Both the position numbers and the translations under genes were made by a program. From Halorubrum distributum JCM 10118 (GTDB lineage: Archaea; Halobacteriota; Halobacteria; Halobacteriales; Haloferacaceae), in NCBI RefSeq assembly GCF_000337335.1, contig NZ_AOJN01000023.1:50627-114626 (forward strand): DNA of 64,000 nucleotides, read 5' to 3'. Under the pieces are notes generated by a model that saw nothing but the letters and a program-made list of their open reading frames with translations, did no database searches and was not told the DNA's origin. Shown one piece after another: positions 11,197 through 46,697 of this stretch (the stretch's first letter is position 1; every line of letters starts with the position of its first letter).

Positions 11197-11443
11197 CCAA
11201 AGCCCCAGCCGCGAGGCGGACGTACGCTCGTTGCGGTCCTCAGTCGCTCGCGTCGCTCGCTCCTTGCGGTCCTTACGTCGCCTACGCCAGCCTCGCGGCT
11301 GCCCCTTTGAGTCCCGCCCGACCGCGACCGCACCTCACGCCTCCCCAGCCTCGTCGGCCTCCCTTCGGTCGGCCGACTCCCTCGCGCGGTGCCGTTCGCG
11401 GCCGCCTCCGGCGGCCGCTCACGGGCACGCGCCACCGCAACTG
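11197..11443 (-). repeat. dispersed structured element, copy A
   Basis: One of four related elements. Arms CAGCCGCGAGGC (11206-11217) and GCCTCGCGGCTG (11290-11301) form a perfect stem. A second hairpin pairs GTCGGCC (11353-11359) with GGCCGAC (11371-11377). A third has inner arms GCGGCCGCC/GGCGGCCGC (11398-11418) inside a longer GC stem. The conserved unpaired blocks are CCTCACGCCTCCCCAGCCTCG and CCCCTTTGAGTCCCGCC as read on the plus strand. The orientation is assigned from the other copies. This copy has no TATA-like sequence at its outer end, unlike B, C and D. Confidence 0.75.
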
Positions 11444-11470
11444 ATCCCGTCTCGTCGACCGCGTCTCCGT

Positions 11471-12826
11471 CTACTCCTCTTCTTCGAGGATCTCGCCCGC
11501 CTCGTCGCGCTCCGTTTCGTCGGTGTCGGCACGTCGGCGCACGTCGACCCGGTAGTCGGTGAGGATGTCGCGGCCGAGGAGCAGGGGGTACTCCATGTGC
11601 CCGCGGTCCTCGACGCTCGCGGTGACGGTGTGCTGGTTGCCCCCGATACCGATGACGAGGTCGACCACGGGGCGGGCCTTCCCGCCCTTCATGCTGCCCG
11701 ACTTGACGCGCGTCATGCTCTTGATCGGGCCGGCGCCGATCTCGGCGGCCAGCTGGGTGTCGATACTCGTCCGGGTCGCGCCCGTGTCCGACTTCGCGAG
11801 CGCCTGCGTCGAGCCGGAGGTGCCGGTGACGACGACCTCCTCGATGTAGCCGATGTCTGGCTGCTCGGTCGAGCTCGGCTTCGGCGCGGGCGCACAGGAG
11901 GGCCGCGAGTCGTCGAGACTGGCGGCGACGCGCTCGACCGCCTCGTCGTCCACCTCGCCGCCGACCGTCTCGATCGCGAGCTTCGCGATGTGCGGGGCGG
12001 GGCTCGTGCCGGTCGCCTCGAAGAGGCCCTTGAAGCCGGCGGTCGGGTTCACCTCGAGGACGTACCAGCCGTCGTACCCCTCGACGAGGTCGACGCCGGC
12101 GTAGTCGAGCCCCATCACCTCGGCCGCGTAGAGGGCGGTGTCGGCGGCCTCCTGGGGCATGTCGTCGGTCGCGTCCTCGACCGCGCCGCCGAGCGCGACG
12201 TTGGTGCGCCAGTCGCCCTCGGGCGCGTAGCGGTACATCGAGCCGACGATCTCGTCGCCGACGACGTACACCCGCAGGTCGCGGTGCTTCTCGTCGTCGC
12301 GGTCGATCAGCTGCTGGAGGAACGCCTGCCGGTTCCCCACCTTCGGGTTCACGCGCTCGGTCAGGTCGACCTTCCACGTCCCGCCGCCGTGGGTCCCGAT
12401 CGCGGTCTTGTACACGCCCACGTCGCCGAACCGCTCGCGGCCCTCGTTGAGGCGGTCGTTCGAGAGCGCGAGCAGCGCGTCGGGCACGCGGATGTTCCAG
12501 TCGGCGAGCGTCGCGGCCGTCGCGAACTTGTGGATCGACGCGAGCACCGCGTCCGGCTCGTTCAGCATCGGTCGGATGCGCTCGAACGTCGTCGCCAGCC
12601 CCAGCAGCTCCGCGGGCTGGTCGGTGTTCGAGAGGAGGAGCCGGTTCGCGATCACGTCGACCGCGGGCTCGACGGAGACGTCGCCGTCCTCGACGCTGAC
12701 CGCCGCGTTCTCCTCGCGGAGCCACACGGGCTCGTGGCCGAGGTCCTCGACCGCGTTGCAGATCGCCTTCGTCTCCTTGCTGTTGTGCAGCGACAACACT
12801 CCCACCCGAACGGAGTCCGAACTCAT
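11471..12826 (-). CDS. RimK-type ATP-grasp ligase fused to a retropepsin-like protease domain
   Basis: 451 residues. The N-terminal 300 residues form an ATP-grasp ligase of the RimK family: HKFATAATLADWNIRVPD, GTHGGGTWKVD, and the metal-binding LEVNPTAGFKG. RimK enzymes add glutamate or similar residues to a protein or small molecule. The C-terminal 110 residues form a retropepsin-like domain of the RimB or ATP-dependent zinc protease type, with active-site loop SDTGATRTSI and a closing LLLGRDIL. It runs divergently from an AstE-like deacylase. CTTTTAGGA on the minus strand near 12850-12857 supports a leaderless start at 12826, preferred over a much longer reading frame that would cover the neighbour. 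Confidence 0.88.
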   Translation of the reverse strand: MSSDSVRVGVLSLHNSKETKAICNAVEDLGHEPVWLREENAAVSVEDGDVSVEPAVDVIANRLLLSNTDQPAELLGLATTFERIRPMLNEPDAVLASIHKFATAATLADWNIRVPDALLALSNDRLNEGRERFGDVGVYKTAIGTHGGGTWKVDLTERVNPKVGNRQAFLQQLIDRDDEKHRDLRVYVVGDEIVGSMYRYAPEGDWRTNVALGGAVEDATDDMPQEAADTALYAAEVMGLDYAGVDLVEGYDGWYVLEVNPTAGFKGLFEATGTSPAPHIAKLAIETVGGEVDDEAVERVAASLDDSRPSCAPAPKPSSTEQPDIGYIEEVVVTGTSGSTQALAKSDTGATRTSIDTQLAAEIGAGPIKSMTRVKSGSMKGGKARPVVDLVIGIGGNQHTVTASVEDRGHMEYPLLLGRDILTDYRVDVRRRADTDETERDEAGEILEEEE

Positions 12827-12849
12827 ACCTGCTCCTGCGCGGGCCGTCC

Positions 12850-12910
12850 TAAAAGACGCGCCGATCGGTTCGGCGGTCGCCCCCCGAATCTCCGGGCCGC
12901 CATATATATA
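12850..12910. promoter_or_regulatory. divergent promoter region
   Basis: CATATATATA (12901-12910) lies about 30 bases before the ATG at 12935 on the plus strand. CTAAAAG (12850-12856), read as CTTTTAG on the minus strand, lies about 27 bases before the ATG at 12826. The two genes therefore share this 108-base gap, and both should be nearly leaderless. Confidence 0.7.
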
Positions 12911-12934
12911 CCCGGCCCCGCGCTCCGCTTTGGC

Positions 12935-13978
12935 ATGAGCGACGACCGGGCGTTCACGTACAACGGCGGGGCGGTGCCGCCCGGCGAGACGCAGAACATC
13001 CGCTACGGGATCAGCGAGACGTACCTCGGCGACCCGGTGCGGATCCCGGTCACCATCGTCAACGGCGAGCGCGACGGGCCGACCGCGTTCCTCACCGCGG
13101 CCGCCCACGGCGACGAGCTGAACGGGATCGAGGTCGTCCGCGAGGTCGCCCACGAGTGGGACCTCTCGCGGCTGGCCGGCACCCTCGTCTGTCTCCCAGT
13201 CCTCAACGTCCCCGGCTTCCTCGCGCAACAGCGGTACCTCCCGGTGTACGACCGCGACCTGAACCGGTCGTTCCCCGGGAAACCGGGGTCGACCAGTTCG
13301 AAGCGGATGGCCCATCAGATCTACGAGAACTTCATCGCGCCGTGCGACTTCGGGCTCGACTTCCACACCTCCACCCGCGGCCGGACGAACATGCTTCACG
13401 TCCGCGCGGACATGACCGACGAGGCGGTCCACCGGCTCGCGATGGCGTTCGGCTCGAAGGTGATAATCGACAGCGACGGCCCGGGCGGCACCCTCCGCGG
13501 CGAGGCGACCGACGACGGCATCCCGACGATCACGATCGAGATGGGGGAGGCCCACCGGTTCCAGCGCCCGCTGATCGACGACGCGCTCGCGGGCGTCCGC
13601 TCCGTCTTCGCGGAGTACGGCCTGCTGGAGACCGACACGGTGCGCTGGCCCGGCTGGCGCACGATCGTCGCCGGCGCGGGCGAGAAGACGTGGCTGCGCG
13701 CCGACTCCGGCGGCATCGTCGACACCCACTTCGAGAGCGGGTCGCTCGTCCGCGAGGGCGACCGCATCGCGACGATCACCAACCCGTTCAAGGAGGACGC
13801 GGTCGGCATCGAGGCCCCCTTCACCGGCCTCCTCATCGGCCTGTTGGAGAACCCGGTCGTCTACCCCGGCAACCCCCTCTGTCACCTCGTCGAGGTCGGC
13901 GAGTCGACCCGCCGGGCGATCGAGGCCGGCGACGCGCCGAAGCCCGTGGGGCAGCCGGCGTCGACGTCGCGGCAGTGA
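12935..13978 (+). CDS. succinylglutamate desuccinylase/aspartoacylase family protein
   Basis: 347 residues. Zinc ligands of the M14-like carboxypeptidase fold are visible: H58 and E61 in AAAHGDELNG, and a later histidine in GLDFHTSTRGR. A catalytic glutamate is likely in ITIEMGEAHRF. The C-terminal 90 residues are a biotinyl/lipoyl-like beta domain (GAGEKTWLRADSGGIVDTH...) typical of this branch. Members cleave amide bonds to glutamate- or aspartate-like groups. Its head-to-head position with a RimK-protease fusion suggests that it removes or processes what the ligase adds. That link is inference. The substrate is unknown. Confidence 0.88.
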   Translation: MSDDRAFTYNGGAVPPGETQNIRYGISETYLGDPVRIPVTIVNGERDGPTAFLTAAAHGDELNGIEVVREVAHEWDLSRLAGTLVCLPVLNVPGFLAQQRYLPVYDRDLNRSFPGKPGSTSSKRMAHQIYENFIAPCDFGLDFHTSTRGRTNMLHVRADMTDEAVHRLAMAFGSKVIIDSDGPGGTLRGEATDDGIPTITIEMGEAHRFQRPLIDDALAGVRSVFAEYGLLETDTVRWPGWRTIVAGAGEKTWLRADSGGIVDTHFESGSLVREGDRIATITNPFKEDAVGIEAPFTGLLIGLLENPVVYPGNPLCHLVEVGESTRRAIEAGDAPKPVGQPASTSRQ

Positions 13979-13986
13979 GGCCGCGG

Positions 13987-14027
13987 TGCGGCGGGTCGCC
14001 GTCGCGATGCGGCGGGTCGCCGTCGCG
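13987..14027 (+). repeat. 21-base tandem duplication
   Basis: TGCGGCGGGTCGCCGTCGCG is present twice in direct tandem (13987-14007 and 14008-14027) between two converging genes. No function is evident. Confidence 0.8.
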
Positions 14028-14042
14028 CCGAAATCGGCACCG

Positions 14043-14570
14043 TCACTCCTCTCCGGCGAGCCGCTCCCGGAGCCCGACCGCGGCGCCGGCGACGACCGCG
14101 AGGAAGCCGACGAGGAACGCGACCGGCTGGAGGAAGACCCGCTGCGCGACGACGGCGCCCGGCTCGCGCTCGACGGTCCGGGTCCAGAACTCGTAGCGCT
14201 CGCCGTCGCGCTCGACGATCAGCAGCCCGTCCCCGAGCGTCGGCTCCGTCGGGTACGACAGCGAGTCGACGCGCTCGTCCGGGTCCTCGACGCCGAACCC
14301 GCCCTCCGGCGCGTCGCGGGCCCGGTCGAACGCCTCTCGGACTTCGGGCGCGAGGTCGGCGTACGCGACGACCGCGTCCGAGGCGTTGGAGCCGTTCGCG
14401 GTGCCGGTCGCCGGCGACCCGATGCCGGCGACCGACCCCTCGCCCACCGGCTGAACCGTGTGCGTGTAGGCGGGGTTCGGCTCGCCGACCGAGACGGGGA
14501 GGAACAGGGGGTTCGCCATCAGGAGGACGCCGAGCGCGACGAGCCCGGCGGCCGCGAGCGGGGTGCGCAT
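14043..14570 (-). CDS. membrane-anchored hypothetical protein
   Basis: 175 residues. An N-terminal membrane segment (about 4-24, LAAAGLVALGVLLMANPLF) may be a signal anchor, and a second lies near 148-165 (FLQPVAFLVGFLAVVAGAA). Between them is an acidic, probably extracellular domain of about 115 residues holding AYADLAPEVREAFDRA and DGLLIVERDGERYEFWTRTV, a pattern common in small haloarchaeal surface proteins of unknown function. It converges with the AstE-like gene. No named family is assigned. Confidence 0.78.
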   Translation of the reverse strand: MRTPLAAAGLVALGVLLMANPLFLPVSVGEPNPAYTHTVQPVGEGSVAGIGSPATGTANGSNASDAVVAYADLAPEVREAFDRARDAPEGGFGVEDPDERVDSLSYPTEPTLGDGLLIVERDGERYEFWTRTVEREPGAVVAQRVFLQPVAFLVGFLAVVAGAAVGLRERLAGEE

Positions 14571-14629
14571 GGCTCGGGGTTTGGCGGGCCGGGAGTTGAG
14601 CCTTTCCGACCTTACTCGGGTTTATAATC

Positions 14630-14745
14630 TGTGTCAGCCGTCTCGGCAGATCGTTTATAAGTGGACAGCGGCTCTGCTATGAACTTCTTAAAAGCCCTCA
14701 CTGCTCAGTTATGAGCCGCTACTGACGGAGCGATGGCGGACACCG
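14630..14745 (-). other. satellite-like sequence next to structured element B
   Basis: This lies in the gene-free stretch 14571-15092 (522 bases). On the minus strand, element B is followed by CGGTGTCCGCCATCGCTCC, then by ACTTATAAACGA and GATTATAAAC. These resemble the degenerate TATA-bearing units after element C. Two small inverted repeats, AGCGGCTC/GAGCCGCT (in part), are present. No gene is seen. Confidence 0.35.
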
Positions 14746-15017
14746 CCAAAGCCCCAGCCACGAGGGCGGCGCACGCTTGCTGCGCGCCTCGGTCGCTCAC
14801 TTCGTTCGCTCCCTGCGGTGCTTGCGTCGCCTGCGCCGCCCTCGTGACTGCCCCTTTGAGTCCCGCCCCATACCGCACGGCAACCGCACCTCACACCTCC
14901 CCAGCCTCGTCAGTCGGCCTCCGCTGCGCTCCGGCCGACTGACTCCCTCGCACGCGCTCCTCGTGGCCGCCGACGGCGGCCACTCGGAGGCGCGCGCCAC
15001 CGCAGTTCGTTTATAAA
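14746..15017 (-). repeat. dispersed structured element, copy B
   Basis: The long stem uses CAGCCACGAGGGCGGCGC (14755-14772) against GCGCCGCCCTCGTGACTG (14833-14850). The only non-canonical position is a U.G pair when read on the minus strand, but A-C on the plus strand. The second hairpin is GTCAGTCGGCC/GGCCGACTGAC (about 14909-14943), and the third has inner arms GTGGCCGCC/GGCGGCCAC. TTTATAAA (15010-15017) lies just outside, placed so that minus-strand transcription would begin at the base of the third hairpin. Confidence 0.8.
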
Positions 15018-15092
15018 CAATCGTCGCCGTCGCTCCTGGTCATTTAAATACTGTATCGCGTCCGGCGGTGGCGCACGTACCCCCGCTGTCCC

Positions 15093-15863
15093 CTACCGCC
15101 CGATCGTCCCCTGCCGCGTCACGGGCGCGTCCGGGTCGACGAGGAAGGCGACGACGGTCGCGCCCTCGTCGCCCGCGGTCACGGTCGGCGGGGCGCCGTC
15201 GCCGGTCCACAGTGCGCTCTCCGTCTCGGCGAGGTCGGCGCCGTCGACCGCGGCGGTCCCCTCGAACACGTACATGTAGGCGTCGCGACCCTCGATCTCG
15301 GGGAGCGTCGCGCCCGCGTCCGCGTCGAGGCGGACGTCGTAGCAGTCCACCGCGTTGCGCACGGTGAACGGGTGGTCTGCGCCCGCAGGGGCGAACACGC
15401 GACGCCACTCGTTCGGCTCGGGCTCGGGCAGCGGGCCGTGCTGGATCCCGGGCTCCAACCCGATCTCCTGTGGGCGGACGAAGATCTGGAGCATCCGAAG
15501 CGGCGGGTCGTCCGCCAGCGTCTCCTCGGCGTGCCAGAACCCGGACCCGGCGTTCATCACGAGGAGGTGTTCCGAGTCGGTGACGAGCTCGTTGCCCTCG
15601 CGGTCGTCGTGGCGCATCACGCCCGCGGGCACCCACGAGACGATCTCCTCGTCGCGGTGCTGGTGCATCCGGATCAGCGTGCCGGGATCCATGAACGACT
15701 CGACGACCGTCGAGAGCGGGCCGTACCCGTGGTCGTCGTGGTCCGGGAGGTTCCGCCCGGGGAAGTTGAACCGCGTGCGGAACTTCCCCTGATCTTGAAA
15801 GACCTCGGAGCGGGGCGCCGGGTGGAGGCCGCGGTCGGCGGCGGTGGTGGAGTCCATTACCAA
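15093..15863 (-). CDS. pirin family protein
   Basis: 256 residues, a two-cupin protein. The N-terminal cupin carries the metal ligands of pirins: MHQHRDEEIVSWVPAG supplies two histidines, and the later NAGSGFWHAE supplies a histidine and a glutamate. Pirins are iron proteins linked to quercetin oxidation or redox-dependent regulation; the role here is unknown. It may start at 15863 (MVM...) or 15857 (MDS...). An inverted repeat covers both starts. A TATA-like TTTTGAC on the minus strand, near 15882-15888, puts the transcript start at the ATG. Confidence 0.88.
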   Translation of the reverse strand: MVMDSTTAADRGLHPAPRSEVFQDQGKFRTRFNFPGRNLPDHDDHGYGPLSTVVESFMDPGTLIRMHQHRDEEIVSWVPAGVMRHDDREGNELVTDSEHLLVMNAGSGFWHAEETLADDPPLRMLQIFVRPQEIGLEPGIQHGPLPEPEPNEWRRVFAPAGADHPFTVRNAVDCYDVRLDADAGATLPEIEGRDAYMYVFEGTAAVDGADLAETESALWTGDGAPPTVTAGDEGATVVAFLVDPDAPVTRQGTIGR

Positions 15864-15870
15864 ATGGTAA
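15857..15870. promoter_or_regulatory. operator-like inverted repeat over the pirin start
   Basis: TTACCA and TGGTAA face each other with a two-base spacer, covering the predicted transcript start and the first codons of the pirin gene. A repressor bound here would block initiation. The binding protein is not known. Confidence 0.45.
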
Positions 15871-15941
15871 AATCTCCGCGGTCAAAAGCCGTCCGGTGGG
15901 GGCGACGCGCTCTTTTGTCCCGCGCCCCGCGTTCCGATATC

Positions 15942-16550
15942 GTGCCGACCGTCCTCTCGGACCGCGACCGCCGCAAGCGCGACGACCGCCCCGACGAGAC
16001 GTTCTACGCCGAGCCGCGGTTCGTCACCCACGCGGACGACGCGTTCCTCGCGCGGCTGACCGAACTGTACGCCTCGGTGACCGAGCCCGGCGACCGCGTC
16101 CTCGACGCGATGAGCAGCTGGGTGTCGCACCTGCCCGACGTCGAATACGCCCGCGTCGTCGGCCACGGGCTCAACGAGGCGGAGCTGGCCGCCAACGACC
16201 GCCTCGACGAGTTCGTCGTCAGCGACCTCAACGCCGACCAGTCGCTGCCGTTCGCCGACGGCTCGTTCGACGTCGTCTGCTGTGCGCTGTCGGTCCAGTA
16301 CCTCCAGTTCCCGGGGCCCACGTTCGCCGAGTTCGCCCGCGTTCTAGCCCCCGGCGGCACCGTCGTCGTCAGCTTCTCGAACCGCATGTTCCCGACGAAG
16401 GCGGTCCGCGCGTGGCGGGCCGCCTCGATGGCCGAGCGGGCTGACCTCGTCGAGCGGTACCTCGACGCGGGCGGGTTCGCGGTCACCGACCGGATCGCGG
16501 AACGCCCGGGTGGGGACCCGTTCTACGCCTTAGTTGGGACGCTCCCGTGA
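15942..16550 (+). CDS. SAM-dependent methyltransferase family protein
   Basis: 202 residues. The core is methyltransferase-like: VLDAMSSWVSHLP takes the place of motif I without the usual GxGxG, ADGSFDVVCCALSVQYLQFP is the acidic loop, and RVLAPGGTVVVSFSNRMFP is the motif after it. The same unusual motif I is seen in a conserved group, so a catalytic role is likely but the substrate is unknown. The GTG at 15942 was chosen because CTCTTTTGT (15911-15919) lies about 27 bases before it, giving a leaderless message. The last 21 bases overlap the converging MFS gene. Confidence 0.78.
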   Translation: MPTVLSDRDRRKRDDRPDETFYAEPRFVTHADDAFLARLTELYASVTEPGDRVLDAMSSWVSHLPDVEYARVVGHGLNEAELAANDRLDEFVVSDLNADQSLPFADGSFDVVCCALSVQYLQFPGPTFAEFARVLAPGGTVVVSFSNRMFPTKAVRAWRAASMAERADLVERYLDAGGFAVTDRIAERPGGDPFYALVGTLP

Positions 16551-17879
16551 CGCCTCGGGCGACTCCAGCCCCGAGCCGCTCGGCGGGCGGAGGACGAAGG
16601 TCGCCAGCCCCGCCGCGACCGCCAGCCCGCCGCCGAGGACGAAGGTGGCGTTCCACCCTGTCGACGCGACGAGGTAGCCGGCGACGACGCCGGAGAAGAC
16701 GCCGCCGCCGACCTTCGCGGTGTACAGGACCGCGTAGTTGCCGGAAGAGTTGGCCGCGCCGTAGTAATCGGCCAAGAGCGAGGGGAAGAACACGTACAGC
16801 GGCGAGGAGAAGAACATCGCCCCGAGGACGAACGCGACGAAGACCGCCCCGTTGCCCGCCTCCCCGGCGCCGACGAGACCGATCCGGAACAGGCCGGCGA
16901 GGAGGAACGACCCGGCCATCACGCGCTTGCGGTCGAAGCGGTCGGTCGCCTCGCCGAGGATCAGCCGCGAGACGCCCGCGGCGACGGGCAGCAGGGTCGC
17001 GGAGAGCGTGGCGATCAACGCCGCGAGCCCGAAGTTCTCCGCGAACCGGACCACGTTCGCGATGACGAGCAGGTCGGCGCTCGCCATCGCGATGAACATC
17101 GCGTACAGCAGCCAGAACTGCCACGTCGAGAGCATCTCGCGCGTCGAGTAGTTGCGGCCCCGGATCGACGCCGCGAGCCCCTCGTCGTCGTCGTCACCGT
17201 CTTTCCGATCCAGCCAGTCCTCCGGCGGGTCCCGGAGGAGGAACGAGCCGACGAGCGTGACGACCAGGATGCCGATCCCGATGTTGCGGAGCACGTCGCT
17301 GTACGCCGCGACGGTCGCGTTCGCGCGGACGTACGGGACGACGAGGGCGCTCCCGGCGGCGAACGCCATCGTCCCGACGCCGGTCGTCAGCCCCGTCCGG
17401 TCCGGGAACCACTTGACCGCGGTGTTGACCGCGACCGTGTAGACGATACCGACGCCGACCGCGCCGAGCGAGTAGAGGAGGTACAGCTGCCAGAGGCTCG
17501 TCGCGTACGCGAGGCCGATGTACCCGCCGCCGGCCAGCACCGCCGCGAGGAACGTGAGCGCGCCCGGTCCGCGGCTGTCTCGCCACTTCCCCGCGGGGAA
17601 CTGCGAGAGGGACTGGAACACGACGTAAAACGAGAACACCGCGCCGAGCGCCGGCAGCGCGATGTCGAGCCCCTCCGAGAGCGCCGGAGAGATGGACGAC
17701 CAGACGTACTGGTACGGGCTCACCGCGGCCATCATCCCAGCCGCGGCGGCGATCTGCCACCACCGCGAGAAGCCGAGGACGTCGGCCGCGCGCGCGGCGT
17801 AGTCGATCCCGACGGCCGAATTGTCGCCGGTCTCTCCGTCGGTCTCGGCGGTCGAGGCGTCCGGTTCGTCGTTACCCAT
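16530..17879 (-). CDS. MFS transporter (OFA-like)
   Basis: 449 residues. After an acidic 35-residue N-terminus there are twelve hydrophobic segments. GKWRDSRGP follows segment 2 and matches the conserved MFS loop. FPDRTGLTTGVGTMAFAAGSALVVP in the middle and a central acidic loop (KDGDDDDEGL) resemble the oxalate/formate antiporter (OFA) branch. Substrates of haloarchaeal members are unproven. The 3' end overlaps the methyltransferase gene by 21 bases in convergent orientation, so the two messages are antisense at their ends. Confidence 0.85.
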   Translation of the reverse strand: MGNDEPDASTAETDGETGDNSAVGIDYAARAADVLGFSRWWQIAAAAGMMAAVSPYQYVWSSISPALSEGLDIALPALGAVFSFYVVFQSLSQFPAGKWRDSRGPGALTFLAAVLAGGGYIGLAYATSLWQLYLLYSLGAVGVGIVYTVAVNTAVKWFPDRTGLTTGVGTMAFAAGSALVVPYVRANATVAAYSDVLRNIGIGILVVTLVGSFLLRDPPEDWLDRKDGDDDDEGLAASIRGRNYSTREMLSTWQFWLLYAMFIAMASADLLVIANVVRFAENFGLAALIATLSATLLPVAAGVSRLILGEATDRFDRKRVMAGSFLLAGLFRIGLVGAGEAGNGAVFVAFVLGAMFFSSPLYVFFPSLLADYYGAANSSGNYAVLYTAKVGGGVFSGVVAGYLVASTGWNATFVLGGGLAVAAGLATFVLRPPSGSGLESPEASRERPN

Positions 17880-18209
17880 CGTCGTTCGTCGGCTGCGTGC
17901 TGTTGGTCCGTGTCATGTGATCCGGTCGGACCGGAGTCGCCGCGAACCGCGGTCGACCCGGTTCGGTGGCTTCGTGTGTCTACTCCTCGCTCCTCGACTA
18001 AAACGCGTCGTTGCTCCGAGTCCGTCCGACCGGGCGCCCGCCGACTTTCGGGGGGATCCCGGGCGCACTGCGATCCCGGCCGCGGTAGGGAATCACGACC
18101 GGCCGATAAATTATGATAATCGTCTATCCTGTCGAAAATTGTTAAGATGCGTCCGCTCGTAGGCGAATTCGAACGCGGAGTCGTTTATCCGACGGCCCGC
18201 ACCGAACAC
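17880..18209. other. gene-free divergent region
   Basis: 330 bases between the MFS and Usp genes. The last 110 bases are AT-rich for this genome (CGATAAATTATGATAATCG and GAAAATTGTTAAG), and GTTTATCC at 18183-18190 is the likely Usp TATA box. No ORF with coding bias is seen in the rest. Confidence 0.6.
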
Positions 18210-18719
18210 ATGTCCACCGACATCAACGCCACCGACTCGCCGAGCGAAATCGCGATCGCCTCTCGCGAGGCCGATAGCGCCGCAGGGGGCTCCCCGCCCG
18301 GGCGCTTCGAGCGCGTGCTGGTCGTCACGACCGACGACCCGGCCGGGCGGGCGGCGGCGTCGACGGCAGTCGACCTCGCCGCGGCCCACGATGCGACCGT
18401 GGACGCGCTGTACGTCGTCGACACGACCGAGGGGTGGGACATGGTCGTCGAGCGTCGCGAGCGGGCCGGCGAGGCGCTCGTCGAGTCGGTCGAGGCCGCG
18501 GGCGCGTCGGTCGGCGTCGACGTCGAGAAGTGGTTCCGCTACGGGACCCCGCACCGCGAGGCGGTCGACTTCGCCGCCGCGCACGACGCGGACCTCGTGG
18601 TGATCGGCAGCGCCCGCCGGACCGGGCTCGACCGGCTCCTCCATCCCGACCCGGTCCCGGCCCGCGTCCGGCGCGGCGCCGACGCACCGGTGATGGTCGT
18701 CGGCCCGGACGACGCCTGA
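18210..18719 (+). CDS. universal stress protein (UspA family)
   Basis: 169 residues. After a 30-residue acidic tail the Usp fold starts at FERVLVVTTDDPAGRAAASTAVDLA. The first loop has TTDDPAG rather than the usual VDGS, and the C-terminal nucleotide loop is weak (VIGSARRTGLDRLL instead of GxxGxxxxxxGS). ATP binding is therefore doubtful. The ATG at 18210 is about 25 bases after the TATA box, and an in-frame ATG 63 bases earlier is rejected as lying upstream of that box. Two other Usp genes are at 22032 and 55003. Confidence 0.82.
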   Translation: MSTDINATDSPSEIAIASREADSAAGGSPPGRFERVLVVTTDDPAGRAAASTAVDLAAAHDATVDALYVVDTTEGWDMVVERRERAGEALVESVEAAGASVGVDVEKWFRYGTPHREAVDFAAAHDADLVVIGSARRTGLDRLLHPDPVPARVRRGADAPVMVVGPDDA

Positions 18720-18810
18720 CCGAGCCTCGCGCCGTCGCTTCCTCCTTCCCGTCTCGTCCCCGTTTCGCCCGCACGCCACCGGTTAAGTGGGTCGAACCCT
18801 AACGATCGGT

Positions 18811-26661: not shown

Positions 26662-26925
26662 TTTATAAACGAAGTGCGGTGGCGCGTGCCGACGAGCGCC
26701 CGTCAGGGCGCGAGTCGCACGCGCGAGGGACGCGGTGAGCGCTCGAAGAGCGCGAACCGCGAGGCTGGGGAGGCGTGAGGTGCGGTGCTGTGCGGGGCGG
26801 GGTGGGGCTCAAAGGGGCAGTCGCGAGGGCGGCGTAGGCGACGCAAGCACCGCAGCGAAGGAGCGTCAGCGACTGAGCGAGGAGCGCAGCGAGCGTACGC
26901 CGCCCTCGCGACTGGGGCTTTGGAG
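26662..26925 (+). repeat. dispersed structured element, copy C
   Basis: The only copy oriented on the plus strand. It lies in the gene-free stretch 26532-27305 (774 bases). TTTATAAA at 26662-26669 precedes hairpin 3, with inner arms GCGCCC/GGGCGC and outer GCGCGTGC/GCACGCGC (26682-26733). Hairpin 2 follows with CGCGGT/ACCGCG (about 26731-26762), then the conserved GAGGCTGGGGAGGCGTGAGG, GGGCTCAAAGGGGC, and the long stem CAGTCGCGAGGGCGGCGTA/TACGCCGCCCTCGCGACTG, which is 19 perfect pairs. It runs directly into the 54-base tandem array. Confidence 0.8.
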
Positions 26926-27183
26926 GCGGTCACCGCAGAGCGAGAGATCACGTACAGCCGAGCGGCTGGGGCTTTGGAGGCGGTCACCGCAGAGCGAGGG
27001 ATCACGTACAGTCGAGCGGCTGGGGCTTTGGAGGCGGTCACCGCAGAGCGAGGGATCACGTACAGTCGAGCGGCTGGGGCTTTGGAGGTGTGTTCCAACG
27101 GTTCGTGGTCGAGTGTTTATAAACGAGCGGCTGGGGCTTCGGCGGTGTTCGCCGCCGCTCCGCAAGCAACTATTTATAAGCGA
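26908..27183 (+). repeat. tandem array of 54-57 base satellite units
   Basis: Three nearly identical 54-base units begin GCG(A/G)CTGGGGCTTTGG at 26908, 26962 and 27016. Two diverged 57-base units (27070, 27127) end in GTTTATAAACGA and ATTTATAAGCGA, and a remnant starts at 27184. Each unit holds a small hairpin such as GCGGT/ACCGC or GGCGGTGTTCGCCGCC. Units are contiguous without unique spacers, so this is not CRISPR. The remaining bases to 27305 show only another TTTTATAAATA (27223-27233). Confidence 0.85.
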
Positions 27184-38756: not shown

Positions 38757-38839
38757 GCTCGTGTCGAGGTATCCGACCTCCGAACTTAAGAGTTACCTTC
38801 CGCCGAATCGTTCATGTCCCACCCGCCCGGATCGCCCCC

Positions 38840-39367: not shown

Positions 39368-39383
39368 GGAGTCCGCGGCGTGG

Positions 39384-39662: not shown

Positions 39663-39689
39663 ATCTGTCCTTTGGACGAGGGCAGATAT
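39661..39689. promoter_or_regulatory. nested inverted repeat over promoter and start
   Basis: ATATCTG (39661-39667) and CAGATAT (39683-39689) are perfect inverted repeats, and GTCC/GGAC (39667-39677) is nested inside. The outer arm on the right overlaps the TATA box, and the left arm overlaps the ATG. A dimeric repressor could cover the whole core promoter. Confidence 0.45.
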
Positions 39690-39732
39690 AACCTTTGTGG
39701 CGGCGCGGCGGGGACAGGATCCCCCGGCCGGC

Positions 39733-40689
39733 TCACTCGCGCGCGCCGGGCGGTAGCGGGTCGGCGTGGTCGGCGATCGCCTCGGAGACGCGGTGCGGGT
39801 GTTCGTGAACCACCCAGTGGCTCGCCTCCTCGATCGCGAGCAGCCGGCCGTCGGCGCAGCGCTCGACGCTCTCGTTGGCCAGCCGGCGCGCGAGGAACCG
39901 GTCCTGACCGCCCCAAATCACCAGCGTCGGCACCGAGACCTCCGTCTTCGGCGGGTCAGGACGGTCGCGGACGATCGCGCGGTACCAGTTCACCATCGCC
40001 TCGAAGGCGCCGTCGCGGTTCCACGCCCGTCGGTACCGCCGCAGGTCCTCGTCGGTGAAGGTACCGGGCGCGCTCGTGTCGCGTAACGCGTCCGTCGCGA
40101 GCCGCCAGTTTCCGGCGCTCGCCACCGCCTCGGGGAGCTTCGGTAGCTGGAACGCGAGCATGTACCAGCTCTTGAGCCGCTGGTCCCACGAGCTGCGTAG
40201 CGCGCGCTCGAAGACGGTCGGGTGCGGGACGTTGATCGCGACCAGCTCCGAGACGCGCTCCTCGTGGCCGAGCGCGAGCCACCACGCCACCGCGGCGCCC
40301 CAGTCGTGGCCGGCGACGGCGGCCGTCTCGCGGTCGTAGGCGTCGATCAGCCCGACCACGTCGCGTGCGAGTTCGTCGATCCGGTAGTCGCGCACCTGCG
40401 ACGGCTTCGCGGAGCAGTTGTAGCCTCGCTGGTCGGGGACGATGACGCGGTAGCCCGCGTTCGCGAGCGGCGCGATCGCCTCGTGCCAGCCGTACCAGAA
40501 CTCCGGGAAGCCGTGAAGCAGGACCAGGAGCTTCCCGTCCTCGGGGCCGGCCTCAACGACGTGAAGCGGCACCCCGTTCGTCTCTATCGCGCGGGACCGG
40601 CCCGGCACCGACTCCGGAATCTCGTCGTCGGGGACCGGTTCCGGCAGCGCCGCCTCGTCGACCGGCCGGCCGGTGGGCGTCTCGTCCAT
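39733..40689 (-). CDS. alpha/beta hydrolase, epoxide-hydrolase-like
   Basis: 318 residues. The oxyanion motif HGFPEFWYGW and the nucleophile elbow GHDWGAAV (D129) are those of soluble epoxide hydrolases and haloalkane dehalogenases. The acid is probably in VIWGGQDRFL and the base in EASHWVVHEHP. A lid with tyrosines (SWYMLAFQLPKLPEA) suits epoxide opening better than dehalogenation. It is cytoplasmic. The ATG at 40689 follows CTATTTGAC by about 27 bases. An open frame extends 50 codons further up, but it lacks coding character and is left out. Confidence 0.87.
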   Translation of the reverse strand: MDETPTGRPVDEAALPEPVPDDEIPESVPGRSRAIETNGVPLHVVEAGPEDGKLLVLLHGFPEFWYGWHEAIAPLANAGYRVIVPDQRGYNCSAKPSQVRDYRIDELARDVVGLIDAYDRETAAVAGHDWGAAVAWWLALGHEERVSELVAINVPHPTVFERALRSSWDQRLKSWYMLAFQLPKLPEAVASAGNWRLATDALRDTSAPGTFTDEDLRRYRRAWNRDGAFEAMVNWYRAIVRDRPDPPKTEVSVPTLVIWGGQDRFLARRLANESVERCADGRLLAIEEASHWVVHEHPHRVSEAIADHADPLPPGARE

Positions 40690-40847
40690 ACCGATCCCGT
40701 GCGTCGGCACCGTCAAATAGGTACGCTCGCCCGTGATGTGGGGGATCGAAATCCTCAAGCGGCTGGCAACCACCCTTCCAACTATATCCGCGAATCCCGG
40801 CGTTCGCCCGCGGTGAGCGCGTTCTCCGGGGATTCGCACCGTACCCT

Positions 40848-42383
40848 ATGACATCCGATTCGTCGACCCCTTCAGCAGCGGACGCGGACGCGTCGAGCGA
40901 CGACGCGACCGTCTCGAACGTCGTCCTCGTCACGGTAGACTCCCTTCGCGCGGACGCCGTCTCCCCGTACGACACCGACCGCCGCTCGCCGGTCATCGAC
41001 GGGCTCGCAAACGGCGGCACCGTGTTCGACCGCGCGTTCGCGACGGGCAACTGGACCCCCTTCTCGTTCCCGTCGATCCTCGCGTCGGAGCCCGTGTTCG
41101 CCCGGTCGGGCGACATCGGCGTCGACGAGTCGGTGACGCTCGCGGAGGTGCTCTCCGACGCCGGCATCGCGACCGGCGGGTTCAACGCCGCGAACGGCTT
41201 CCTCACCGACCACTGGGGGTACCCCGACGGGTTCGACGAGTTCGAGCCGTTCGTCACGAGCGTCGGCTCCAGCCGCTACAGCCGGTACCTCGCCGCGCAT
41301 CCGACCGTCGAGGCGTGGATCCAGCTCGCGTCCTCGCCGATCCGCCGGCTCGGCTCGAAGGTCCGCGGCGAGAGCGACGACCGCCCGTTCCTCGACGCCT
41401 CGCGCATGTTCGACGTCGAAGACGCCGCAACCGGGTTCGTCGATGACACGGACGAGCCGTTCTTCCTGTGGGTCCACTACATGGACACCCACACCCCGTA
41501 CGTCCCCGCGCCGCGGTACATCCGCGAGGTCTCCGACGGCATCGTCGGCACCCACCAGATGCTCCACGCGCACGCTCGGACGAGCCTCGGTCTCGAAGTC
41601 GGCGAGCGGACCCTCCGCGAGCTCCGGACGCTGTACCAGGCGACGGTGCGACAGGTCGACGCCAGCATCGGCCGCCTGCTCGACAGCCTGGACGAGGCGG
41701 GCGTCGCCGACGACACCGCGGTGCTGCTCGCCGGCGACCACGGCGAGGAGTTCCAGGAACACGGCCACCTCGCCCACTATCCGAAGCTGTACGACGAGCT
41801 GATCCACGTCCCGTTCGTTGCCGACGTGCCCGGGCTCGACGGCGGCCGCGTCGACGGTCACGTCGGACTCGACGCTATTCCGCCCACGGTGGCCGACCTG
41901 CTCGGCGTCGACCCCGCGCCCGAGTGGCACGGCGAGTCGCTCGTGCCGGTGCTCTCCGGCGCCGACGAGACCGGATCGGCGGCCGACGACGACGCCGACG
42001 GTCCGGACGTCCCCGACGACCCCGTCGTCTCGGTGACCGTCCGCGGCGAGGAGGTGACCCAGCAGCCGATCCCGCGGTCGCTGGCCGACGGCGACCTGTT
42101 CGTCAGCGCGCGCGACGACGACTGGACGTACATCGAGAACGTCGACGCCGGCGAGCGGGAGCTGTACCACCGCCCCTCGGACCCGACCCAACAGGAGAAC
42201 CTCGCGGTCGACCCGAATGAGGAGGAACAGGCGGTCATCGACCGGTTCGAGCCGGTCGTCGACGCCCACGCGGAGCTGCTCCGCGAGCGCGGTGCCGCGG
42301 CGGAAGCGGCCGCGGCCGAGCGCGCCGAGGAGGAGGTCGACGAAGACCTCGAAGCCCGCCTCGAAGCGCTCGGGTATAAGTAA
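40848..42383 (+). CDS. sulfatase-superfamily protein with threonine at the nucleophile position
   Basis: 511 residues of the alkaline-phosphatase/sulfatase fold: NVVLVTVDSLRADAVSPYD binds metal through the aspartates, VHYMDTHTPYVPAPRYI follows, and DTAVLLAGDHGEEFQEHGHL is the second metal site. The formylglycine signature CxPSR is absent. The matching place reads GNWTPFSFPSI with T70, so a true sulfatase is unlikely; threonine nucleophiles occur in phosphoglycerol and phosphoethanolamine transferases and phosphatases. There are no membrane segments. The C-terminus is helical and acidic. Coupled to GtrA by TAATG. Confidence 0.83.
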   Translation: MTSDSSTPSAADADASSDDATVSNVVLVTVDSLRADAVSPYDTDRRSPVIDGLANGGTVFDRAFATGNWTPFSFPSILASEPVFARSGDIGVDESVTLAEVLSDAGIATGGFNAANGFLTDHWGYPDGFDEFEPFVTSVGSSRYSRYLAAHPTVEAWIQLASSPIRRLGSKVRGESDDRPFLDASRMFDVEDAATGFVDDTDEPFFLWVHYMDTHTPYVPAPRYIREVSDGIVGTHQMLHAHARTSLGLEVGERTLRELRTLYQATVRQVDASIGRLLDSLDEAGVADDTAVLLAGDHGEEFQEHGHLAHYPKLYDELIHVPFVADVPGLDGGRVDGHVGLDAIPPTVADLLGVDPAPEWHGESLVPVLSGADETGSAADDDADGPDVPDDPVVSVTVRGEEVTQQPIPRSLADGDLFVSARDDDWTYIENVDAGERELYHRPSDPTQQENLAVDPNEEEQAVIDRFEPVVDAHAELLRERGAAAEAAAAERAEEEVDEDLEARLEALGYK

Positions 42384-42805
42384 TGGTCCGCGCCCTGCTG
42401 CGCAACCTCGTTAGCGGACCGCTCGCGGTTCAAATGCGCCGGTTCGTAATGGTGGGCGCGTTCACCGCAGGGATACAGATGGGCCTGTTGTGGCTGTTCG
42501 ACGACGTCGCCGGACTGAACTATCTCCTCGCCGCGACGATCGCCATCGAGATCACGATCGTCCTCTCGTACGTCTTCAACAACGCGTGGACGTTTCAGGC
42601 GAGTCAGAACACCGGCCTGTCCGAGTACCTCGGCGGACTGCTTAAGACGAACCTGGTTCGCGGTACCGCGTGGCCGATACAGATCGGTGTGCTCTACGCG
42701 CTCGTCGAGTGGGGCGGGATGACCGCACTCGTCGCGAACGTCCCCGCGATCCTCATCAGCGGGCTCTACCGCTTCGCGCTCGACTCGCAGTGGACGTGGG
42801 GGTGA
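42383..42805 (+). CDS. GtrA family membrane protein
   Basis: 140 residues with four hydrophobic segments, as in GtrA. RRFVMVGAFTAGIQMGLLWLF and LSYVFNNAWTFQA are the family motifs, and SGLYRFALDSQWTW is the ending. GtrA proteins help move polyprenyl-linked sugars across the membrane for cell-surface glycans. The start overlaps the sulfatase-like gene stop by one base, which hints that the two act together on a surface polymer (inference). Confidence 0.9.
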   Translation: MVRALLRNLVSGPLAVQMRRFVMVGAFTAGIQMGLLWLFDDVAGLNYLLAATIAIEITIVLSYVFNNAWTFQASQNTGLSEYLGGLLKTNLVRGTAWPIQIGVLYALVEWGGMTALVANVPAILISGLYRFALDSQWTWG

Positions 42806-42830
42806 TATCCGCCTCGCCGCGTCGAGTCCA

Positions 42831-43532
42831 TCAGAACGGGAGCCGCGGCTCGACGCGCTCGACGAGGTCGCGGACCGCCTCCTGTTTGTAGTAGCCGACC
42901 GCGGACGCGGCCACGACGAGCGCGACGAGCGCCATCGCGGAGAGGAACCGGCCGCTCGCGAGCTCGCCGCCAGCGTACACCGTCAACACGTACGCCGGGA
43001 GGCGGCCGACGGCGATGACGCCGATGAAGGTGGGCAGCGACCACTTGGTGAGGCCGCTCAAAAAGCAGATGGCGTCGTCGGGAAGCCCGGGGATGATGAC
43101 GAACGCGAACAGCCCGGGAATTCCCACGGTGTCGACGAACCCGTCGAACCGCTCGATCACGTCCTCGTGGATGACGTTCTCGACGAAGGAGCGACCGTAG
43201 CGTTTCGACAGCGAGAAGGCGACCGCGCTGCCGATGAGCACGCCGGTGAGGCTGTACACCGTGCCCCAGAACGAACCGAAGAGGTAGCCCGCGACGAGGG
43301 CGACGACCTGTCCCGGGATCGGGGCGACGATGACCTGGAGGGCCTGGATGCCGATGAACACGATGGGGGCGAAGATACCGAACTGGTCGAGCCACGTCCG
43401 GAGGGCCTCGGCGTCGGTGATGAAGCCCGCGTAGCGGCTCACGAGGACGTAGAGCCCGACCGCGAGGACCGCGACGCCGACCACGGCCGCGATCCCCCGC
43501 CGGCGGTCCGCCCGCGAGGAGAAGAGTTTCAT
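42831..43532 (-). CDS. TVP38/TMEM64 family membrane protein (VTT domain)
   Basis: 233 residues with about six hydrophobic segments. The VTT/SNARE-associated motif region reads VIVAPIPGQVVALVAGYLFGSFWGTVYSLTG, then FVIIPGLPDDAICFLSGLTKWSLPTFIGVIAVGRLPAYVL. This family includes proposed lipid scramblases and transporters. The substrate is unknown. It converges with GtrA and starts 87 bases from the DUF429 gene stop on the same strand. Confidence 0.87.
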   Translation of the reverse strand: MKLFSSRADRRRGIAAVVGVAVLAVGLYVLVSRYAGFITDAEALRTWLDQFGIFAPIVFIGIQALQVIVAPIPGQVVALVAGYLFGSFWGTVYSLTGVLIGSAVAFSLSKRYGRSFVENVIHEDVIERFDGFVDTVGIPGLFAFVIIPGLPDDAICFLSGLTKWSLPTFIGVIAVGRLPAYVLTVYAGGELASGRFLSAMALVALVVAASAVGYYKQEAVRDLVERVEPRLPF

Positions 43533-43619
43533 TCGTGTCGTAGCGGGTGACAGAGGGTCTTGAAGCTTACCAACGCCGGGATCGACCGTCCCGAGACGGA
43601 CGCGGGGCGAGGAGGCGTC

Positions 43620-44390
43620 TCAATCCAGCCGCTCCGCGCTCCAGTACGCCATCCGCATCGGAATCCCCACGCCGTCGCGGTAGTCGGCGCCCTCCGGCAG
43701 GAACCGGAGCTCGTCGAGCGGACGGCGGGCGACGGCCGCCAGCCCGAGCGCGTCGACCGCGTCGTCGACGGTCGGGTCAGCGGCGACCGCGACGTCGCTC
43801 TGCGCCTCGGAGAGCACCCGACAGACCCGGCCGAGCGCCGCGTTCGGATCGTCGAGGTGGCCGTCGAGCGCGCCCAGTCGCTCGCCGACGCCCGGCACGC
43901 CGGTTTTCGAGTGTTCGAGCGGGCTGCCGTTGAGTCCGCGGAAGCACACCTCGGGGTGCGCCTCCAGAATCCGCTCTCGCGCGGCCTCGTCCTCGCGGAG
44001 GAACGCGTCGACCTCGCCGACCGCCGGCGCGATGTGGTACGACTGCCGGCTGAGCCCCTTGTCGAGGTCGGCGCGGTTCCGCTCGTTCACCGTCTCGTAG
44101 TTGGCCCCGTCCGTCGCGGCCTCGCACGCGCTCCGCGACGGGACGGGAAACACGCTGCTCGGACGCTCGGCGGCCGACCGCGCGGCCGAGTCGACGGCCT
44201 CGCGGGCCGCCAGCGTCTCCGCGTCGTGGGGGAGGCCGATCGGTACGTCGACCAGCATCCGGTCGACGCCGTCGTTCCACAGCGCTTCGAGGTCGCGTTC
44301 GAGGCGCGGCTCCGGTTCGTCGTCCTCGAACACGACCGCGAGCCACGCGCCGCCCGCCCAGTCGACGCCCGCGACGGTGTCGGGTGTCAT
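43620..44390 (-). CDS. DUF429 family protein (RNase H-like nuclease fold)
   Basis: 256 residues. VAGVDWAGGAWLAVVF at the start, MLVDVPIGLPHD, and a late ADPTVDDAVDALGLAAVA provide the spaced aspartates of an RNase H-like fold, as predicted for DUF429. EVCFRGLNGSPLEHSKTGVPGVGERL is also characteristic. Biochemical function is unknown. TTGAATAG about 27 bases before the ATG at 44390 supports a leaderless start. Confidence 0.87.
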   Translation of the reverse strand: MTPDTVAGVDWAGGAWLAVVFEDDEPEPRLERDLEALWNDGVDRMLVDVPIGLPHDAETLAAREAVDSAARSAAERPSSVFPVPSRSACEAATDGANYETVNERNRADLDKGLSRQSYHIAPAVGEVDAFLREDEAARERILEAHPEVCFRGLNGSPLEHSKTGVPGVGERLGALDGHLDDPNAALGRVCRVLSEAQSDVAVAADPTVDDAVDALGLAAVARRPLDELRFLPEGADYRDGVGIPMRMAYWSAERLD

Positions 44391-44495
44391 CGATCGATCG
44401 CTCGTTCCCGTGCCTATTCAATCGGTCCGGTCCGCGGACCGATCGCTCGGGGCATAGGGCCCTGCGAGGCGCGGTCGAAGCCGCGACGCGGCGCG

Positions 44496-45944
44496 CTACG
44501 GCGAGACGGGTACGTCGTCTGTCACGGGAACCGCCGGGTCGACGGTCACGTCGAACCGGACGCCGCCGCTCGCGCTGTCGCCGACCGAGATGTCCCACCC
44601 GTGGGCGTCGGCGATGCGCTCGACGATAGTCAGCCCGAACCCGGTCCCGTCCGTGGCGGTCGTGTATCCCGCTTCGAACACGCTCTCGCAGTCCGTCTCG
44701 TCGAGCCCCGGTCCGTCGTCGGCGACGTAGAACCCGTCGGCGGACGCCCCGATCGTCACGGTCACGGGCGACCCGCAGTGGTCGTCGACGTTGCGGAAGA
44801 GATTCTCGAGGAGCCGCCGGATCCGGGAGCGGTCGCCGGAGACGGTTATCTCGTCGTCCGCCACGTCGAGCGTGTCGGCCGGACAGCCGAACGGCTTCCA
44901 GGCCTCCGCGGCGAGCGCGCCGACGTCGACCGGCTCCGGCTCGGACACCGACTCGCCCTCCTTCGCGAGCGTGAGCAGCTCGTCGATCATCTGCTCCATC
45001 CGCTCGTGTTCCCGTTCGAGGGCCTCGAAGTGCGTCGCCTCGCCCTCGGCGCGAGCCATCTCCGCCGCCGTCTTCGCGTTCTGGAGGGGCGTCCGGAGGT
45101 CGTGCGACACGATCGACGTGAACTCGTCGAGCCGCTTGTTCTGTCTGATCAGCTCCTCGCGCTGCCGCTGTTCGCGCGTCGCGTCACGGAGGATCCCCAC
45201 GGACCCGCGGAACTCGTCGTCGAACGGGAGCGCGGCCATGTGGTCGTAACACGGCACCGTCTCGCCGTCTTTCGTGTGGATGTCCACCCCGAACTGCTGC
45301 GTCTCCGGCCCCGCGCTGGAGACGATCGTCGCGAGCATGCCGTTCGCCCGCTGGACACCCTCGTCGGACTTGATCTTGCCCGGCGGGCTGCCGATGATCG
45401 CCTCCCTGTCGTAGCCGACGAGGTCGAGGAACGCCTCGTTGACGTACTCGAACTCCGCCTCGGCGTTCACGACGTAGATCGGATAGTCGAGCGCCCGGAG
45501 GACCGTCGAGTATCGCTCCGACTCGATCTGGGCGCGGTACTCCGTCGCGGCGTGCTTGACCCGGTTGGCCAGGCGGCGGTGTTGGTCGGGGCCGCCCTTC
45601 TGGAGGTACCCGGTCACGCCGGCGTTGATCGCCTGCGCCGCGATCTCCTCGCTGCCCTTCCCCGTGTAGAGGATAAAGGGGAGGTCGGCGTAGTGATCGC
45701 GGACGGCGTCGAGCAGTTCGAGTCCGTCCGTCCCGGGCATCTCGTAGTCGCTCACGACGCAGTGGACGGACCGCTCGTCGAGCGTGTCGAGCACCGCGTC
45801 CGGACTGGCCACCGTGGTTATTTCCACGTCGCCGAGCTCCCGCTGGATGAAGGATTTGGTCAGGTCGAGAAACGCGGGATCGTCGTCGACATGTAAGACT
45901 TCGATCGACGCAGTGGCGGCTTCATTCGGGTTATCGATCGACAT
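44496..45944 (-). CDS. hybrid sensor: REC-PAS-histidine kinase
   Basis: 482 residues. Residues about 15-130 form a receiver domain (EVLHVDDDPAF, phospho-site aspartate in VVSDYEMPGTDG, YLQKGG lysine). A PAS domain (about 145-260; YPIYVVNAEAEFEYVNEAFLDLVGYDR) follows. A HisKA helix with VSHDLRTPLQN gives the phospho-histidine, and the HATPase end shows NLFRNVDDHC, YVADDGPGLD and GTGFGLTIV. It is soluble, with no membrane segment, so it senses something inside the cell. No partner response regulator is adjacent. GTTTAGAAC about 27 bases upstream supports the ATG at 45944. Confidence 0.93.
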   Translation of the reverse strand: MSIDNPNEAATASIEVLHVDDDPAFLDLTKSFIQRELGDVEITTVASPDAVLDTLDERSVHCVVSDYEMPGTDGLELLDAVRDHYADLPFILYTGKGSEEIAAQAINAGVTGYLQKGGPDQHRRLANRVKHAATEYRAQIESERYSTVLRALDYPIYVVNAEAEFEYVNEAFLDLVGYDREAIIGSPPGKIKSDEGVQRANGMLATIVSSAGPETQQFGVDIHTKDGETVPCYDHMAALPFDDEFRGSVGILRDATREQRQREELIRQNKRLDEFTSIVSHDLRTPLQNAKTAAEMARAEGEATHFEALEREHERMEQMIDELLTLAKEGESVSEPEPVDVGALAAEAWKPFGCPADTLDVADDEITVSGDRSRIRRLLENLFRNVDDHCGSPVTVTIGASADGFYVADDGPGLDETDCESVFEAGYTTATDGTGFGLTIVERIADAHGWDISVGDSASGGVRFDVTVDPAVPVTDDVPVSP

Positions 45945-46222
45945 TCCAACTACCGATCAAGAGGGGTTCTAAACGGAAAAATATCCGGCTGTAGTGTCTC
46001 GTTTCGAGAAGCCGATCGGGGAGACAATCGGCCGCTCGTCTCGAATCTCTTACACTTCAGATCGCCGGCGACGCGACCGCGATTTCCGCCGTTTCGGCCT
46101 CCCCGCTGCGCCCGGGAAACGCACGTCTCGGAACGCGGTGGTCGGGTGACATCCGCGGCGGAACACCGCGGCTTCACCAAAGGTAGGTACGCGTCTGTAG
46201 TCGGCGGAAAATGCGGGAGAAG
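45945..46222. other. gene-free stretch before tRNA-Pro
   Basis: Part of the 745 bases between the histidine kinase and the CHY gene. It holds the kinase promoter and a short inverted repeat, CCGCGG/CCGCGG, near 46154-46172. No coding bias is seen in any frame. Confidence 0.5.
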
Positions 46223-46295
46223 TGGGCCGGCACGAATTTGAATCGTGGTTACGGCCACCCGAAGGCCGAAGGATACCAAGCTACCCCACCGGCCC
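46223..46295 (-). tRNA. tRNA-Pro(CGG)
   Basis: On the minus strand, acceptor GGGCCGG pairs with CCGGCCC, with discriminator A. The anticodon arm is CGGCC/GGCCG with loop TTCGGGT, giving anticodon CGG. The T arm is CACGA/TCGTG with loop TTCAAAT. ATTAAAAG near 46318-46327 is the TATA box, about 27 bases upstream. CCA is not encoded and no intron is present. Confidence 0.97.
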
Positions 46296-46414
46296 GCACT
46301 CGACAGAAGGCCGCTCGTTCTTTTAATCCTTCCGAAAGGGGGCGATCGAGACGGACCGGAGGGACGAGGAGTCGATAGCATATCTAGGTCATCGACGCCA
46401 GACGCGGGTACCAC

Positions 46415-46697
46415 GAAGCCCCAGTCGCGAGGACTCGATGCGCTCGTTGCGGTCCTCAGTCGCTCGTTACACTCGCTCCCTGCGGTCCTTACGTCGCGCG
46501 TCTTCGTCCTCGCGACTGCCCCTTCGAGTCCCGCCCCGCACCGCAACCGCACCTCACGCCTCCCCAGCCTCGTCAGGCGCGTCCTGCGGGCTCCCTTCGG
46601 TCGCCCTCGTCGCGCCCGACTCCCTCGCGCGTGCTGACTCGCGCCCGTCGGGCGCTCGCAGGCACGCGCCACCGCTGCCGCGTCATCAATTATAAAT
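46415..46697 (-). repeat. dispersed structured element, copy D
   Basis: The long stem is CAGTCGCGAGGAC (46422-46434) with GTCCTCGCGACTG (46506-46518). The second hairpin pairs GTCAGGCGCG with CGCGCCCGAC; the single exception is G.U on the minus strand but A-C on the plus strand. The third hairpin has inner arms GCGCCC/GGGCGC and outer GCGCGTGC/GCACGCGC. ATTATAAAT (46689-46697) at the outer end overlaps the last codons of the CHY zinc-finger gene. Confidence 0.8.

Follow-up and report, generated by a model that had tools for sequence, protein, structure and literature searches.

Do the hairpin-bearing elements scattered over one stretch of the Halorubrum distributum JCM 10118 genome belong to a single family, and does that family behave as RNA, as mobile DNA or as both? 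The stretch analysed here, referred to as the window, is 64,000 nucleotides long. The original prediction had described four dispersed elements (A-D) that share sequence blocks and hairpins. All four were found to be real, and the quoted blocks and stems are present in every one of them as described. Element C is oriented opposite to A, B and D, and the homology of the four becomes apparent once C is read on the forward strand and the others on the reverse strand. They share a strand-specific architecture that runs from a TATA-like box through hairpins H1 and H2, GAGGCTGGGGAGG, a G-rich linker, CTCAAAGGGGC, hairpin H3 and GGGGCTTTGG to a tail.

Elements A-D in the window

Boundaries were set with a profile built from the copies in the genome (nhmmer); the slightly longer ends originally given for B, C and D include the TTTATAA box. 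The features are as follows.

11194-11438, reverse strand: element A (H1-H2-block-H3), without a proximal TATA-like box (nhmmer profile match; alignment)
11197-11311, reverse strand: H3 domain of A (covariance model R1, 131.6 bits)
11333-11352, reverse strand: conserved block GAGGCTGGGGAGGCGTGAGG of A (sequence)
14743-15003, reverse strand: element B (nhmmer profile match)
14746-14860, reverse strand: H3 domain of B (covariance model R1, 131.5 bits)
15010-15017, reverse strand: proximal TTTATAAA box of B, preceding the conserved GCGGTGG start by 14 nt (sequence; box enrichment)
15042-15048, reverse strand: distal TTTAAAT box of B, preceding the proximal one by 31 bp (sequence; spacing)
26662-26669, forward strand: proximal TTTATAAA box of C (sequence)
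26676-26926, forward strand: element C (nhmmer profile match; RNA fold z = -6.6)
26808-26923, forward strand: H3 domain of C (covariance model R1, 133.6 bits)
26908-27088, forward strand: tail of C, a 54-bp tandem repeat of its 3' end, 3.4 copies with 97% matches (TRF)
46410-46675, reverse strand: element D (nhmmer profile match)
46413-46528, reverse strand: H3 domain of D (covariance model R1, 112.9 bits)
46690-46696, reverse strand: TTTATAA box of D, preceding the conserved start by 21 nt (sequence)

The H3 covariance model scores A-D at 112.9-133.6 bits (E = 1e-22 to 3e-27), and chance is excluded because the next-best match in the window has an E-value of 0.2 and at most 16.6 bits. The predicted fold of element C has an energy of -160.3 kcal/mol as against -130.3 +/- 4.6 for dinucleotide shuffles, which places it 6.6 SD below them. 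Two side observations were made in the window. The 54-bp minisatellite at 26908-27088 differs in unit number and sequence in a close relative, G517, and a C-terminal TnpB fragment (PF07282, E = 7.6e-20, 134-aa frame) is located at the window's edge (49-249).

Pairing and covariation

The arms of the hairpins had been reported to differ between copies and still pair, with selection acting on pairing rather than on sequence. Our analysis bears this out, as H3, H1 and H2 all exceeded their shuffled or chimeric controls and H3 also yielded pairs in a tree-aware test. Among 94 Halorubrum sequences with 36 proposed H3 pairs, 93.0% of the cells are standard pairs, compared to 80.0% when partners are shuffled, and changes on both sides were observed in 27 of the 36 pairs. 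The covariation score is 0.320 against 0.114 for shuffled and 0.019-0.045 for slid partners. When the same substitutions were redistributed on a FastTree phylogeny, five pairs among 6328 remained significant (E < 0.05), and all five lie inside the proposed helices. RNAalifold recovered the same H3 architecture unaided. In the order-wide alignment, which was itself fitted to the structure model, 91.7% of the cells pair and the score is 0.632 as against 0.163 after shuffling. A closing stem (P0) between the 5' GCGGTG and CACCGC of the tail was predicted by folding and discarded, since covariation gives it no support.

The tip of H3 consists of 2-bp steps in series, with tandem G.A pairs between them. 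The G.A pairs were retained in about 79-94 of the 94 copies (86 or more at most positions), while the flanking pairs covary. The length of the tip arms varies mostly by 4-nt modules and H3 as a whole measures 107-126 nt, its length changes not being multiples of 3. Single covarying pairs (46-89 and 49-86) were also found inside the conserved H3 loops. Tandem G.A pairs on one strand would appear as C.T mismatches on its complement; the strand that folds must therefore be the G/A-rich one, which reads GAGGCTGGGGAGG. Within helices, G.T exceeds A.C by 56 to 48 in the raw count and by 56 to 26 after removal of one misaligned column pair. Of 100 copies, 62 show full complementarity in the 3-bp helix of H1 that adjoins the GA step (shuffled mean 17, maximum 28). 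A terminal H2 helix of at least 6 bp was counted in 52 of 102 copies, whereas chimeras assembled from different copies gave 6.6.

Exchange of hairpins between copies

Copies in our genome and in G517 were observed to have near-identical flanks while H1, H2 and H3 differ together. At site A, for example, the upstream flank is identical over ~70 bp and all three hairpins differ, each of them still pairing. In our genome, H2 is identical in 14 pairs of copies, yet their H1/H3 identities (0.76/0.81) show no more likeness than those of random pairs (0.79/0.80). Hairpins are therefore transferred between copies as whole units, for which ectopic gene conversion via the conserved blocks is the simplest mechanism. 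The "compensatory" arm changes of the original prediction therefore need rewording: pairing is kept, but much of the difference reflects whole-hairpin exchange rather than stepwise compensation. Nothing points to a recent burst of the family, and nearest-neighbour identity does not exceed 0.90 among 37 parsed copies of our genome. The elements thus offer a natural laboratory for hairpin evolution under a pairing constraint, in which hairpin-by-hairpin exchange yields covariation that would otherwise be taken for stepwise compensation.

Such palindromes might also be kept through templated repair of the DNA or conversion of one arm by the other, while the folded strand itself is unselected. Perfect palindromes are prone to arm-to-arm correction, and the wholesale replacement of hairpins between close relatives would fit a process of this kind. 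Templated repair would not, however, account for the order-wide conservation of one-strand G.A tandems and of internal loops, nor for the single covarying pairs in the conserved loops, and the non-complementary tandem G.A pairs conserved at fixed places oppose it as the whole story. We consider this explanation very improbable.

A two-hairpin insert of the TCGCCGGC..GCCGGCTGCCAGAGGG..CCCTCGCTGGA type was noted inside H1, H2 or H3 of several copies (L044, L053, L061, L071, L125 and L127), and also in a copy of G517 (L280, 8638-8938) and in the site C copy of another genome, G126 (L247). It resembles a small mobile repeat with hairpins as its target (compare the SMR-A elements, PMC3119063).

Family size and distribution

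Element A alone, used as a BLAST query, retrieved at least 40 near full-length copies in the 3.3-Mb genome, and the H3 covariance model gave 138 matches at E <= 1e-3 among the best 150 scored candidates. H. distributum JCM 10118 thus carries roughly 130 copies of the ~250-base element. An exact search for the 15-mer GACTCAAAGGGGCAG matched 30 of 30 Halorubrum genomes but none of the other genera in the taxonomic family. The restriction to Halorubrum that this exact-motif search suggested was overturned by the covariance model, which matches every Halorubrum genome tried, 20 of 28 genera of the taxonomic family and, order-wide, 67 of 117 genomes and 30 of 48 genera. Outside the order, the model found no match among the 197 genomes of the phylum that were searched, and none in 148 kb of unrelated loci. 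Elements A-D are members of a single family whose copies are dispersed, non-coding and intergenic and which extends over Halobacteria.

At distant loci, the H3 consensus reads GGGtGGGACTGAAAGGGGC, stem, GAcGcAAGCACyGCA, tip, GARGmGCGCAGCGAG, stem, GGGGGCTTTC. H3 is the universal core of the family; in Halorubrum it is accompanied by H1, H2 and the tandem tail, and some other genera likewise retain H1/H2 together with the GGCTGGGGAGG block. Six matches were located on plasmids, with no annotated features on them. Viral contigs were considered as carriers and rejected, the core-motif matches there being chance occurrences without a profile match. H3 domains in other genera (L215, L229, L235, L269, L271 and L278) often form head-to-head pairs ~40 bp apart (110 bp in L269), some of which flank a central CCGGYTGG-YCARCCGG-like palindrome. 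With 138 H3 matches in 3.3 Mb, the family is among the commonest intergenic features of Halorubrum, and it extends over the order while standing outside the curated RNA families.

Gain and loss of sites

Comparison of orthologous positions in different species showed gains or losses of elements. At site B, our genome, G517, G119 and G100 carry a copy, whereas G071, G129 and G126 have none. Copies at site C were found in our genome, G119, G100, G126 and G517, where the copy is truncated within H3; G071 and G129 lack one. G517 also has one extra copy adjoining A. The mobility contained in the original prediction of an RNA-like mobile element is therefore backed by occupied versus empty sites, although the empty sites could instead be deletions. 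Neither target duplications nor terminal inverted repeats were visible at the empty and occupied sites B and C, where the flanks have diverged and the element ends are undefined. One G517 element occupies the place of a gene called at 7665-8291 in our genome (window 7313-8316), a case of deletion-coupled insertion or replacement.

Placement relative to genes

Context statistics refer to individually retrieved loci, with genes called from codon usage by a purpose-built caller. None of the 115 copies overlaps a called gene. They lie in convergent (51), divergent (17) and tandem gaps (22 in the same and 25 in the opposite direction to the neighbours), so that promoter (divergent) gaps are under-used and no strand preference relative to the neighbours is seen. 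The copies tend to sit close to gene ends. Among 687 neighbouring proteins we found no recurrent family, no transposase cluster, no autonomous partner gene adjoining the copies and no TnpB or IscB gene as a recurrent neighbour. The regulatory RNA half of the original prediction is not supported, given the lack of strand bias and the under-use of divergent gaps. A cis-regulatory leader or riboswitch would keep a consistent strand and position towards some class of genes, which the 22/25 split in tandem gaps and the diversity of the neighbours do not show.

More broadly, the element could act in cis on neighbouring mRNAs as a terminator, insulator, 3'-UTR stabiliser or leader. The preference for convergent gaps and the closeness to gene ends agree with such a role, as does site B, where the tail repeats place TATA-like boxes next to a gene start. 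Against this, strand is random in tandem gaps, orthologous sites do not retain their copies, the neighbours have no function in common and archaeal terminators are T-rich. A cis-acting role is accordingly judged unlikely.

TATA-like boxes

A TTTATAA-like box was found in 61 of 106 copies compared to 2 of 318 background 30-mers, and in most cases its first base lies 13-16 nt ahead of the conserved GCGGTGG. Farther upstream, 34 of 106 copies have a distal TTTAAAT box. Both boxes were scored in 25 copies, 17 of which have them 31 bp apart. Most copies also have a downstream tail unit with its own TTTATAA. The near-fixed position of these boxes suggests that the copies may be transcribed from them.

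The chief rival of a mobile element is a family of multicopy non-coding RNA genes. Each intact copy would then be transcribed from a TATA box of its own, and its folded RNA would act in trans, for instance by binding protein, and/or the family would spread in a SINE-like manner via an RNA intermediate. The near-fixed boxes, the complex covarying fold with its one-strand G.A tandems and excess of G.T over A.C, and placement independent of the strand of neighbouring genes would all be expected of such genes, although a strand-specific fold fits RNA and single-stranded DNA alike. The proximal box is, however, absent from 45 of 106 copies and lies too near: the usual archaeal TATA-to-start distance is about 25 nt, and only the distal box would yield a full-length RNA. 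Some copies are moreover truncated (site C in G517) and no partner protein was found. We regard these RNA genes as a possible but tentative explanation. Rather doubtful is the form in which the family would be an undescribed order-wide haloarchaeal structured RNA, made of GA-tandem hairpin modules and expressed from its own TATA boxes in scores of copies per genome, that would help to disperse itself and have its modules swapped from copy to copy. If the copies are transcribed, they would constitute a large and so far unknown class of archaeal RNA.

A proposed palindrome-associated mobile element

The reading that we prefer, with a probability of about 0.5, is that the family is mobile, old and non-autonomous and belongs with palindrome-associated elements of the IS605/PATE-like kind, whose single-strand fold is recognised and whose hairpins are swapped by recombination. 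The resemblance to palindrome-associated transposable elements (PATEs) and IS605 follows from the intergenic, strand-indifferent placement, the gain and loss of sites, the hairpin anatomy and the lack of near-identical copies. When the DNA becomes single-stranded, the folded strand would be what the mobilising machinery recognises, with a transposase presumably acting in trans. After insertion, homologous recombination through the conserved blocks would swap hairpins between copies, so that hairpins would diversify rapidly and always as matched arm pairs. Mobilisation via a single-stranded hairpin is what we infer from these features; if the family is mobile as DNA, it would extend the theme of single-strand hairpin transposons to very long folds.

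TnpB-type transposons of Halorubrum also have a long hairpin upstream of tnpB. A GA-tandem tip like that of H3 was observed in such hairpins in 6 of 30 TnpB loci (L286, L287, L291, L296, L298 and L306), at coding-strand positions 304-404 in L286, about 324-356 in L287 and near 481 in the other four. Covariance models R1/R2 gave weak matches upstream of tnpB in two TnpB loci (33.5, 31.7 and 31.2 bits). This likeness is weak (31-33 bits) and could represent convergence on a stable hairpin. The IS200-type Y1 transposase (Y1_Tnp), which would mobilise a PATE/IS605-derived element, was detected in 9 of 12 Halorubrum genomes searched and was undetected in the other three (G138, G139 and G511), of which G138 and G139 carry dozens of copies. 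The presence of copies in genomes without a detected Y1 transposase, the absence of recent copies and the lack of an adjoining transposase count against the mobile-element reading. The TATA-like boxes and the order-wide 115-nt internal-loop fold likewise exceed the known needs of a transposon end.

Comparison with known systems

That no named family would fit proved correct for Rfam. At gathering score, only two tRNAs were matched in the window, and in a permissive search with element C the best sub-threshold matches were noise. We found no description of the family in the literature on haloarchaeal structured repeats that was searched, most subscription papers lying outside it.

Omega RNAs and HEARO RNAs, which are associated with TnpB, IscB and their relatives, are structured RNAs of a few hundred bases that occur in many copies, often away from the protein. 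The family resembles them as a structured RNA-like element of this size and multiplicity but differs in that its copies have no recurring TnpB or IscB neighbour and no Rfam match, the likeness being confined to the region upstream of tnpB. As in REP/BIME repeats with RAYT, the palindromes are dispersed and intergenic. Those repeats, however, are 20-40 nt palindromes with a cognate RAYT transposase, whereas the unit here is ~250 bp and has three different hairpins and internal-loop motifs. The elements are short, non-coding, dispersed and present in many copies, like MITEs, but at sites B and C neither the terminal inverted repeats nor the target-site duplication of MITEs could be seen, the exact element ends being undefined.

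PATEs are known from Haloquadratum, with haloarchaeal IS605-type ends alongside (PMC3119063). Like PATEs, the family has hairpins, no transposase, low identity between copies and presence/absence between strains, and the lack of near-identical copies is also a PATE property (PMC3119063). Copy number is comparable, with about 180 PATE copies per genome, and in both cases small repeats are inserted inside palindromes (PMC3119063). As in PATEs, the unit is too short for a transposase gene (~250 bp, with no overlap with called genes). PATEs insert at a specific short target and do not duplicate it; the elements may behave alike, no duplication being visible at sites B and C with their diverged flanks. 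The near-terminal palindromes of PATEs are short, for example 22 bp (PMC3119063), whereas H3 is a fold of 107-126 nt with internal loops conserved order-wide. The family further differs in its TATA-like boxes and tandem tail. We describe it as PATE-like and claim no membership in PATEs. The structured element appears to represent a new family, to which palindrome-based non-autonomous elements are the nearest known kind.
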